Source: Mycolicibacterium boenickei
GTDB lineage: Bacteria; Actinomycetota; Actinomycetes; Mycobacteriales; Mycobacteriaceae
DNA length: 64,000 nt
Direction of reading: 5' to 3'
NCBI RefSeq assembly: GCF_010731295.1
Contig: NZ_AP022579.1
Coordinates: forward strand, 4,216,001-4,280,000
Shown piece by piece: positions 28,811 through 50,562 of the stretch (its first letter is position 1; every line of letters begins with the position of its first letter). Under the pieces are notes generated by a model. That model saw nothing but the letters and a program-made list of their open reading frames with translations. It did no database searches and was not told the DNA's origin. Both the position numbers and the translations under genes were made by a program.

Positions 28811-28827
28811 GAGCGGCGCATCGCCCT

Positions 28828-29030
28828 CGTGCGGGAGAGTTTCGTGACAGCCAGCCACGGACGCCGAAGGAGCAATACCTCTCCGTCAACCTCTCAGGCA
28901 CCCAGGACCGCGCCAGGCCCCGATGCCTCTGGAAAGTGGTACCCGCTGGGTACCCGCCCATGGGGAAAAGTCCTGTTCCGGGGCTGAATCTCTCAGGCGC
29001 CCGGACCGGGTCGACGACAGAGGGAGAGGG
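28828..29030 (+). ncRNA. Tandem glycine riboswitch
   Basis: Two consecutive glycine aptamers precede gcvP. Aptamer I has GCGGGAGAG at 28831, CGCCGAAGGAGCAA at about 28862 and CTCTCAGGCACC at about 28891, and closes with CCGC at 28908-28911 pairing with GCGG at 28831-28834. Aptamer II opens with CCTCTG (28926-28931), contains CTGAATCTCTCAGGCGCC (from 28984) and closes with CAGAGG (29018-29023). These are the conserved cores of the class. Glycine binding is expected to switch on gcvP expression. The intact tandem fits cooperative or interaction-stabilised sensing. Aptamer II lacks a clear GCCGAAGG element. Confidence 0.92.
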
Positions 29031-46127: not shown

Positions 46128-46544
46128 TCAGGCAGTACCCGAATTACCAGCCGGTGGGGGCAGCTGGTGCTTGCTCTCCAGTTCGGCGAGTGCCCGGCGC
46201 AGGGCTCGGGCTTCGTCGATACCGACTTTCTCCACGAAATGAACCAGCGCAGCCTGGCGGCTGCCGGAGTCCGAGGCCTGGTCGAGGGCATCGACCATCA
46301 GGCCCGCAACCAGCTCGTCGCGCCCATGGGTGGGCGCGTAGCGGTGCGCGCGGTCATCGCGGTGCTGCACGACGAGGTTCTTCTTCGCCAGTCGTTGCAG
46401 CACGGTCATGATCGTGGTGTAGGCCAAGTCGCGGCGGGCGGCCAGCGCCTCATGGACTTGGCGCACTGTTTGGGGTTCGGGCGCGGACCACAGGTGATCC
46501 ATCACCTCGCGCTCAAGTTCCCCGAGACGCGTCAATTTGGCCAT
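46128..46544 (-). CDS. blaI: BlaI-type transcriptional repressor
   Basis: A 138-residue winged-helix repressor (LGELEREVMDHLWSAPEPQT, then RRDLAYTTIMTVLQRLAKKN), with a C-terminal dimerisation helix. BlaI represses its own operon and target genes until cleaved in response to cell-wall stress. Start ATG 46544 follows AGGAGAG. It is upstream of the M56 peptidase gene. A dyad resembling its operator lies at 46588-46604. Confidence 0.93.
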   Translation of the reverse strand: MAKLTRLGELEREVMDHLWSAPEPQTVRQVHEALAARRDLAYTTIMTVLQRLAKKNLVVQHRDDRAHRYAPTHGRDELVAGLMVDALDQASDSGSRQAALVHFVEKVGIDEARALRRALAELESKHQLPPPAGNSGTA

Positions 46545-46721: not shown

Positions 46722-46740
46722 TATAGTAAGGCTAACCTAA
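46722..46740. promoter_or_regulatory. IdeR-type iron box
   Basis: The 19-bp site TATAGTAAGGCTAACCTAA matches the IdeR consensus TTAGGTTAGGCTAACCTAA at 15 of 19 positions; the right half is identical. It starts with TATAGT, a good -10, so IdeR-Fe2+ would block the promoter 27-45 bp before the ATG at 46767. Confidence 0.8.
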
Positions 46741-46766: not shown

Positions 46767-47537
46767 ATGACGGTCTTGATCGAAGATCCGCTGATCGCGG
46801 GTATGGCTATCGAGCGGACGCTGCCGCTGCACGAGTCGAGTCGGCGTTTACGTGAGCTGTATCCGGAGTGTCCGCGGGTCTACGGCGTGGCCGTGGTGGG
46901 CGACTTGTCCCGTAGGCGCTGGTGGCCGTTGGCCGAGGCGCTGTCCGCCGACCGGCTGCAGGGCATGTTCGACGCGGCGATGGCCGAGACGGGCAACCGG
47001 GCCGCGGTCGCCCAGCAACTGGCCGCCACGTTCATCCATGTGGTGATCGGCCGGGTGGTGCCGCTGCTGGTGCTGGAGGGGCGCGCCTGGGACACCGGCC
47101 TGGAGAACCTGTGGGTCCACGTCGACTCCGAGGGTGCGATCGACTGGGTCGGTGTCGTCGATCCGACCCTGCGCGGGCTGCCTGAGGATCCCTATTACTG
47201 CGGCCGGGCCGCCCGGTTGGCCAACGCCTGCCACGACGGCATCGTCGCGCTGCCCAGTGAGGCCGCACTGACCACGTGGGTGGCGCATCGCAGTCATCGC
47301 GCGCTGGAGCCGCTGTTCGCCCGGTTGGTGGAGATCAGTGACGGCGCCATGTCGATCGCGGCCATGTGGCACATGGTGGGGGCGGCGGTGGTCGGTGCGG
47401 CCACCCAGGTCCCGCTGCTGGCCGGCTCCAGCGAGGTGGTGAGCATGCGGCGCGGCCAGGCAGTGCTGGATGCCCTGGTGGGCTTCGGTCTGCCGGTTCG
47501 CGGTTGCGGCCGGGCGGGGAAGGTCTTGTTAAATTAG
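46767..47537 (+). CDS. IdeR-box-controlled protein, possibly FhuF-like iron reductase
   Basis: A 256-residue protein of uncertain function. The overall character (helical, SDGAMSIAAMWHMVGAAVVGAATQV near residue 205) is reminiscent of the FhuF/IucA-IucC-type ferric siderophore reductase group. However, the C-terminal CC-x10-C-x2-C iron-sulfur motif of FhuF is missing; only single cysteines occur (ECP, YYCG, NACHD, RGCGR). Start ATG 46767 follows CGGAGG at 6 nt. The IdeR box upstream indicates low-iron induction, so a part in siderophore iron uptake or release is the best inference. No such gene lies between blaI and the thioesterase in M. tuberculosis. Confidence 0.75.
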   Translation: MTVLIEDPLIAGMAIERTLPLHESSRRLRELYPECPRVYGVAVVGDLSRRRWWPLAEALSADRLQGMFDAAMAETGNRAAVAQQLAATFIHVVIGRVVPLLVLEGRAWDTGLENLWVHVDSEGAIDWVGVVDPTLRGLPEDPYYCGRAARLANACHDGIVALPSEAALTTWVAHRSHRALEPLFARLVEISDGAMSIAAMWHMVGAAVVGAATQVPLLAGSSEVVSMRRGQAVLDALVGFGLPVRGCGRAGKVLLN

Positions 47538-47555
47538 GGCAGCCTTGCCTATTAT
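47527..47555 (+). promoter_or_regulatory. Promoter of the MrsI-like sRNA
   Basis: TTGTTA (47527-47532), a 17-bp spacer and TATTAT (47550-47555) form a strong SigA promoter overlapping the stop codon of the IdeR-controlled gene. The predicted start is near 47562. Confidence 0.7.
47534..47552. promoter_or_regulatory. Second IdeR-type iron box, inside the sRNA promoter
   Basis: TTAGGGCAGCCTTGCCTAT matches the IdeR consensus at 13 of 19 positions, with both outer arms good. It fills the spacer between -35 and -10, so it would repress transcription when iron is plentiful. Confidence 0.65.
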
Positions 47556-47561
47556 GTAGAT

Positions 47562-47663
47562 ACGAGGCTAACGGACCGAGCCGGAGTCCTGAGGGCTGCA
47601 GAGACCCCCGGTCCACTCGAGGGCGGGTCCCGCGTTTCACACGCGGGACCCGCCCGCATCTTT
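47562..47663 (+). ncRNA. mrsI: Putative iron-responsive sRNA (MrsI-like)
   Basis: A ~100-nt non-coding region between an IdeR-controlled promoter and a strong terminator. GGACCG (47573-47578) and CGGTCC (47609-47614) can close a hairpin with a G/A-rich interior; the 3' end is the terminator at 47621-47655. In M. tuberculosis the iron-sparing sRNA MrsI (ncRv11846) lies between Rv1846c and Rv1847 and is IdeR-repressed. The equivalent location (blaI to thioesterase), IdeR box, size and terminator all fit. It would repress non-essential iron proteins during iron starvation. Identity rests on context; sequence conservation was not tested. Confidence 0.75.
47621..47655 (+). terminator. Intrinsic terminator of the sRNA
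   Basis: GGGCGGGTCCCGCGT (47621-47635) and ACGCGGGACCCGCCC (47641-47655) form a perfect 15-bp stem with a TTCAC loop, followed by GCATCTTTG. Confidence 0.88.
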
Positions 47664-47693
47664 GTGGCGATACGGCGTGTAGACACAAGCACT

Positions 47694-48095
47694 GTGACCA
47701 CTGATATCCCCGAAGGTCTGGGCAAGGGGTTCGACACCGAACTGGGCCTGACCTATCTCGAGCTCACCCCCGACGGCGGCCGCGCACAGCTGACGATCCA
47801 TGACAAGCTGCTGCAGCCCTGGGGCATCGTGCACGGTGGCGTGTACTGCTCGATCGTCGAAAGCCTGGCCAGTGTGTCCGGCCACATCTGGCTGTCGGCG
47901 AACGGCGGCGGCACCGTGGTCGGCGTCAACAACAACACCGATTTCCTGCGTGCGATCGGATCTGGCACTGTCACAGCGGTTTCCGAACCGATCCACCGCG
48001 GCCGCCGCCAGCAGCTCTGGCTGATCACCATCACCGACGAGGCCGGCAAGCTCGTGGCCCGAGGCCAGGTGCGGCTGCAGAACATTCCCGAGTAA
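47694..48095 (+). CDS. PaaI-type acyl-CoA thioesterase (Rv1847-like)
   Basis: A 133-residue hot-dog-fold thioesterase. The core motif LLQPWGIVHGGVYCSIVESLAS contains the HGG of the family, and VVGVNNNTDFLRAI and EPIHRGRRQQLWLI match the actinobacterial subgroup. GTG 47694 is chosen because the preceding 10 codons sit against the terminator and lack family character. Substrate is probably an aromatic or acyl-CoA ester. Urease genes follow on the same strand 60 bp later. Confidence 0.85.
   Translation: MTTDIPEGLGKGFDTELGLTYLELTPDGGRAQLTIHDKLLQPWGIVHGGVYCSIVESLASVSGHIWLSANGGGTVVGVNNNTDFLRAIGSGTVTAVSEPIHRGRRQQLWLITITDEAGKLVARGQVRLQNIPE

Positions 48096-48840: not shown

Positions 48841-50562
<1,722 letters not shown>

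Follow-up and report, generated by a model that had tools for sequence, protein, structure and literature searches.

The blaI-Thioesterase Locus

The window analysed here, 64,000 nucleotides long, comes from the 6.59-Mb genome of a mycobacterium. M. porcinum is a close relative, its locus (L031) being the nearest among the named ones (98.8% identity over 171 bases; thioesterase 98%). A gene for a BlaI-type repressor (PF03965) occupies positions 46131–46544 on the minus strand, and a gene for an Rv1847-type hotdog thioesterase (PF03061, TIGR00369) occupies 47664–48095 on the plus strand. The interval between them holds an FhuF-like gene (46767–47537, plus strand), termed 'iron reductase' in source names, and, directly downstream on the same strand, a candidate small RNA (sRNA) at 47562–47660. 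An earlier note on this DNA had placed such an RNA between blaI and the Rv1847-type gene, and the domain matches of both neighbours agree with this placement. The thioesterase start at 47664 was set mechanically, and translation may in fact begin at an in-frame GTG at 47694. Shortly 3′ of the sRNA terminator, at window positions 47677–47686, stands GTGTAGACAC, a word that recurs in many related loci; it may serve the thioesterase gene as an operator or promoter element, in which case 47694 would be the likelier start.

Predicted Promoter, IdeR Box, and RNA Structure

A promoter scan found the −35 hexamer TTGTTA (47526–47531, plus strand), which falls within the final codons of the FhuF-like gene, and the −10 hexamer TATTAT (47550–47555), which are separated by an 18-bp spacer and match the consensus at 9 of 12 bases. 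Between and partly over them lies TTAGGGCAGCCTTGCCTAT (47534–47552, plus strand), which has one mismatch to TTAGGNNAGNCTNNCCTAA, a sequence that we take to be the IdeR consensus, and which overlaps the −10 by 3 nt. A weaker IdeR-like box with three mismatches precedes the FhuF-like gene (46722–46740, plus strand). Boxes with three or fewer mismatches thus number two in the window against 0.20 expected, and two or more occurred in 1 of 100 shuffles, whereas the promoter scan is weak on its own, with one pair in the window against 0.3 in shuffles. The earlier note had described a consensus promoter with a 17-bp spacer containing an IdeR-type box. The pair of hexamers and the putative IdeR site over the −10 stand, but the spacer is 18 bp, and 'consensus promoter' is an overstatement since a 17-bp spacer requires a poorer −35.

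The RNA is predicted to start about 7 nt past the −10 and to end past the terminator stem. Folding and alignment place a 5′ hairpin (GGACCG...CGGTCC) at 47573–47614, at whose top a 7-nt apical loop, AGGGCUG (47592–47598), is the proposed seed. It is followed by an intrinsic terminator stem-loop (47621–47655) with 15 pairs, a 5-nt loop, and the tail GCATCTTTGT, which is a weak T-tract. The fold of 47562–47663 reaches −56.0 kcal/mol (z = −4.5; none of 200 shuffles as low), a large share of which is contributed by the terminator helix. An RNA of about 100 nt with an internal hairpin and a 15-bp terminator, as had been proposed, is therefore what the fold and the terminator scan predict. Both the −35 and the T-tract are poor. 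It is conservation, rather than the single-sequence scans, that supports the case for an sRNA.

Conservation and Covariation

The main comparison comprised 80 named loci, which were the best 80 of 104 relatives and were collected via the thioesterase rather than via the RNA. The AGGGCUG loop with its closing helix is present in 77 of these 80 loci (L065, L101, and L108 lack the hairpin), in all 29 unlabelled loci of the genus found by blastn, and in all 17 loci of other genera found by the covariance model R1. The word used for finding the loop itself contained the loop, so the evidence lies in these counts. The thioesterase gene lies downstream on the same strand in all 77 named loci with the loop, and blaI lies upstream on the opposite strand in 75 of them. 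The IdeR box has two or fewer mismatches in 75 of the 77, the exceptions being L072 and L082, the latter of which begins just upstream of the hairpin. At a fixed offset from the box, TANNNT is found in 76 of the 77 named, 29 of the 29 unlabelled, and 16 of the 17 other-genus loci. L065 has a stretch at 2506–2540 that matches the box region, with no sRNA hairpin found.

In an alignment of 29 chosen sequences (A1), the loop is identical in every row, and 96.2% of the 870 pair cells are standard, compared with just 33–51% in versions slid by one to three columns. Changes on both sides occur in 13 of the 30 pairs, and the covariation score was reached by none of 500 shuffles, which ignore the relatedness of the 29 sequences. 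The terminator accounts for 10 of these pairs (out of its 15) and the inner hairpin for 3; the outer hairpin helix has no pair with both sides changed in this alignment, and one inner hairpin pair is standard in just 5 of the 29 sequences. The loop stays constant although its closing helix varies, with both strands changing together; the forms are CUG/CAG (75 named, 27 unlabelled, and 12 other-genus loci), CAG/CUG (2 named and 2 unlabelled), and CCG/CGG (5 other-genus loci).

Distribution across Genomes

A covariance-model search, which the earlier note had suggested for this element, was carried out with R1. The model matches the window at 47557–47660 with 111.6 bits, the window being one of its building rows, and it matches 348 of 394 sampled genomes of the genus at E ≤ 0.001, a set that includes the window's own genome and some of the model rows. 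In a sample of 298 genomes drawn from the order, R1 matches 54. Of these, 33 belong to the genus and 17 to other genera of its family, and 4 are weak matches from outside the family. The weak matches outside the family (G038, G487, G574, and G615; E from 1e-4 to 9e-4) were set aside, the one inspected (G038, L174) having neither box nor loop.

The 17 loci from other genera of the family (L157–L173) are labelled as six genera and have a box with one to four mismatches and the thioesterase downstream; blaI lies upstream in 11 and the FhuF-like gene directly upstream in 9. Of the seven other-genus family genomes with no initial match to R1, three (G559, G643, and G651) revealed box and loop on closer look, which brings the predicted RNA to 20 of the 24 sampled genomes of other family genera. 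In the remaining four, all of one genus and 2.3–2.9 Mb in size, the thioesterase has no box or loop nearby. In two genomes of genus g23, the element sits some 3 kb away from the best thioesterase match, in divergent orientation (G559, C1:7234151–7234255; G651, C6:82463–82583). The FhuF-like protein at L162 is up to 94% identical to named Nocardia proteins, and Nocardia is among the genera that carry the predicted RNA. It is also carried by the 174-kb plasmid p174 of Gordonia polyisoprenivorans VH2 (L327, 4960–5093; 79.3 bits), with TTGACA and an IdeR-like box of three mismatches, in an interval that has no annotation. The order on p174 is GuaB1, gnd, M56 peptidase, BlaI, sRNA, PaaI thioesterase, aldolase/citrate lyase, and urease, which is that of the window (from the translations read) minus the FhuF-like gene and plus one gene.

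R1 has no match in 46 of the 394 genus genomes, of which 20 were searched again, including the thioesterase locus. In 16 of these 20, this locus has neither a box with three or fewer mismatches nor a box plus loop, while G182 (L267) retains an IdeR box with one mismatch, with no sRNA hairpin found. G127 is uninformative, as its contig starts just upstream of the thioesterase, and G135 has no thioesterase match. The 3.3-Mb genome G096 contains a decayed mrsI remnant beside a thioesterase remnant (L257, about 1472–1569), in which the loop is kept, the box degraded, and the terminator gone. Other R1 hits in these 20 genomes are weak (E of 0.008 and above). Five of the sRNA-less loci (L268, L272, L275, L278, and L282) have CGGAGCAAGCCTACCCTTA in common about 110–135 nt upstream of the thioesterase match; it is box-like with five mismatches and is perhaps a decayed IdeR box. 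G094 (L175), read at H37Rv coordinates, has no box or loop there and is not a named M. tuberculosis locus.

No copies were found among 50,697 phage records with a 111-nt query, or in IMG/VR with the exact pattern used. A 42-nt query at E ≤ 1 returned Halobacterium and Deinococcus plasmids and a Rhodobacter phage at E of 0.5–0.7, which were taken as chance.

The Nested FhuF-like Gene

The FhuF-like protein has no Pfam or NCBIfam match. Its homologues are named 'iron reductase' or 'Ferric iron reductase FhuF-like transporter' by the sources, and among 120 listed homologues of the Nocardia FhuF-like protein, 4 have a precomputed assignment to PF06276, which we take to be the FhuF family. The role of FhuF is the release of siderophore iron.

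The stop codon TAG of this gene (47535–47537) lies inside the IdeR box of the sRNA. Together with the weaker box that the gene has of its own, this bears out the view of the earlier note that the promoter overlaps the end of a second gene with an IdeR box. The arrangement is also conserved. The gene lies directly upstream in 75 of the 77 named loci with the loop (the sequences of the other two, L082 and L109, end short), and relative to the box its stop is at +1 in 63 of these 75, at −2 to −4 in 11, and at +45 in a single locus. Among the 29 unlabelled genus loci, 19 have the gene upstream (stop at +1 in 13), as do 9 of the 17 other-genus loci (stop at +1 in 2 and at −3 in 4). When the 200 nt that precede the gene are scanned for boxes, the best one shows two to three mismatches in each of the 75 named loci and two to four in the nine other-genus loci.

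The scan revealed no terminator-like site between the FhuF-like gene and the sRNA, so the FhuF-like mRNA should end at the sRNA terminator. Iron may regulate the gene and the sRNA together, and their transcripts may overlap.

An origin of the sRNA as the 3′ UTR of the FhuF-like gene was considered by means of a thioesterase tree of 78 rows and few columns, from which L025 and L029 were dropped for lack of a thioesterase match. The tree needs seven changes for the presence of the gene, and its starred branches force at least three. The tree does not fix a direction, the gene being absent from the branch that holds the Gordonia record and that is sister to the remaining rows with the sRNA.

Candidate Targets

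The leader of bfrA in the window's own genome contains CAGCCCTCA at −27 to −19, upstream of AGGAG. It is the exact 9-nt Watson-Crick complement of UGAGGGCUG, which consists of the loop and the two nucleotides that precede it, UG. Among 32 sRNA-bearing genomes of the genus, this 9-mer occurs at −26 or −27 of bfrA in 14 (the own genome included) and is absent in its exact form in 18; it occurs in none of 11 genus genomes without the RNA, a comparison confounded by shared descent because these 11 may be one clade. Three of the 32 (G004, G018, and G024) have two bfrA copies, one of which was read. In other genera, bfrA was over the cut-off in three genomes, none of which has the 9-mer and two of which have CAGCCC.

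CAGCCCTCA is not enriched genome-wide, occurring 31 times compared with 38 times for the reversed word, as a regulator with few targets would allow. Thirty of the 31 sites were inspected. One lies at −24 of a P450-like gene (name read from the sequence; L220, 1501–1509; C1:3221862–3221870), whose eight closest orthologues (L328–L335, 81–96% identical) have the exact 9-mer in two cases and CAGCCC in five. This is suggestive of a possible further target. Other sites near starts precede amidohydrolase-like, metallo-hydrolase-like, and flavoprotein-like genes, all named by eye. On the other hand, hypF gained no support as a target here: the own genome has no hypF match over the cut-off and hence nothing there to target, and CAGCCC near the start of the hypF match was found in just one of six relatives, at −86.

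Relation to MrsI and Proposed Function

In the published passages available to us, MrsI is described as an sRNA with an IdeR box that is induced by iron starvation and represses bfrA, fprA, and hypF (PMC8628891, PMC11188477, PMC7029489). It lies between blaI and rv1847, at positions 2096766–2096867 of H37Rv (PMC8628891), and its seed comprises 6–8 nt in a 7-nt single-stranded apical loop (PMC11188477); a further paper also covers MrsI (PMC10449499). Compared with these descriptions of MrsI (ncRv11846) from M. tuberculosis and M. smegmatis, rather than base by base with either RNA, the window sRNA appears alike in the blaI–Rv1847 interval, the IdeR box, the length of about 100 nt, the 7-nt apical loop, the terminator, and bfrA as a (predicted) target (PMC8628891, PMC11188477). 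The position and architecture of MrsI, which the earlier note had attributed to the element, accordingly agree with what the sources describe. The window differs from the described MrsI locus in the IdeR-boxed FhuF-like gene between blaI and the sRNA, with its stop in the box of the sRNA, and in the published target hypF, which has no match over the cut-off in this genome.

In our judgement, the element is very probably the MrsI orthologue of this mycobacterium and would act as an iron-sparing sRNA. Several results count against this reading: the exact bfrA 9-mer is absent in 18 of the 32 sRNA-bearing genomes and in the three other-genus genomes, it shows no genome-wide enrichment, hypF gives no support, the outer hairpin helix has no double-sided change, the element is displaced in G559 and G651, and the −35 and T-tract are poor. 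Iron-loaded IdeR is a repressor, and the position of the box over the −10 suggests occlusion. When iron is sufficient, Fe-IdeR on the box would block RNA polymerase; when iron falls, IdeR would leave and an RNA of about 100 nt would start near 47562 and end at the 15-bp terminator. The loop AGGGCUG and the preceding UG could then pair with CAGCCCTCA, located shortly before the ribosome-binding site of the bfrA mRNA, whereby bfrA translation would be blocked or the mRNA destabilised and iron would not be locked in bacterioferritin. The FhuF-like mRNA, from its own IdeR-like box, probably runs through the sRNA to the same terminator, so that the sRNA may exist in two forms, its own transcript and the 3′ end of the FhuF-like mRNA.

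It could be argued that the hairpin and terminator just belong to the FhuF-like mRNA, as its 3′ UTR and terminator, or else form a leader of the thioesterase, and that there is no independent sRNA. The lack of a terminator-like site between the FhuF-like gene and the hairpin would fit the former, as would their adjoining in nearly all named loci with the loop (75/77). However, box, TANNNT, and loop persist with no FhuF-like gene directly upstream in 10 of the 29 unlabelled genus loci and 8 of the 17 other-genus loci, and between the RNA and the thioesterase stands a terminator that is itself conserved; we regard this explanation as unlikely. Another possibility is a genuine sRNA under IdeR control that evolved independently at this locus and is no orthologue of MrsI, which would be in keeping with the fact that MrsI of M. 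tuberculosis was compared by description alone. Such an origin seems very improbable given that the interval, the length, the kind of operator, the 7-nt apical loop, and the bfrA target are all as described for MrsI in the sources, and that the predicted RNA is nearly genus-wide.

The element might also be conserved as DNA, an IdeR site plus a terminator, with no function of an RNA in trans. The concentration of double-sided changes in the terminator (10 of 13 pairs) is what this would lead one to expect, but it does not account for the constancy of an unpaired loop whose closing helix changes in step, or for a loop-region complement that occupies a set position before bfrA in 14 of the 32 genomes, and we give it almost no credence.

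A broader proposal can be made, to which we would give about an even chance: MrsI may be an old RNA family of a wider group (Mycobacterium, Nocardia, Gordonia, and more) with one unchanged 7-nt seed, which forms a nested iron module with the FhuF-like gene in Nocardia, many mycobacteria, and others, while the stand-alone form belongs to lineages without that gene. In the nested module, the FhuF-like stop would lie in, or abut, the IdeR operator of the sRNA and the mRNA would end in the sRNA, whereby one repressor site would couple the release of siderophore iron with iron sparing. MrsI as such is already known; what is new, beyond the papers found, is its predicted occurrence, with a single seed, in further genera and the conserved nesting of the operator at a stop codon. 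No report of MrsI outside mycobacteria was found in the open-licence literature (Rhodococcus, Nocardia, iron-sparing sRNA), most subscription papers lying beyond it, and a search of literature text with the hairpin letters gave no mycobacterial paper by title among the matches listed. The analysis would extend an iron-sparing sRNA to genera with no report found in that literature. It also offers testable predictions (the seed AGGGCUG, the bfrA target site, and the nested iron module) and a covariance model for an RNA with no matching family in Rfam 15.

Comparison with Other Regulatory RNAs

One known class of sRNAs overlaps the 3′ end of an mRNA and has its own promoter and a shared terminator. 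The window sRNA resembles it in having a putative promoter that overlaps the final codons of a gene and an apparently shared terminator, and differs in that some loci have the predicted RNA with no FhuF-like gene, read-through being probable rather than observed. RyhB of enterobacteria, on the other hand, is controlled by Fur. The window sRNA is like RyhB in its predicted action, which would be iron-responsive and would lower iron-using proteins, as RyhB is described in the part of the source consulted (PMC7029489), whereas its operator is of the IdeR type; it would be an analogue rather than a relative.

The Rfam 15 scan of the window gave no family matching the sRNA at the gathering threshold and two matches elsewhere, neither of which is RyhB. 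One is a glycine riboswitch aptamer (RF00504) at window positions 28822–28920 on the plus strand, with 54.6 bits. The other is RF02514 (5′ ureB sRNA) at 49003–49294 on the minus strand, with 74.9 bits, which lies opposite a frame read as the urease alpha subunit and perhaps reflects just conserved coding sequence.
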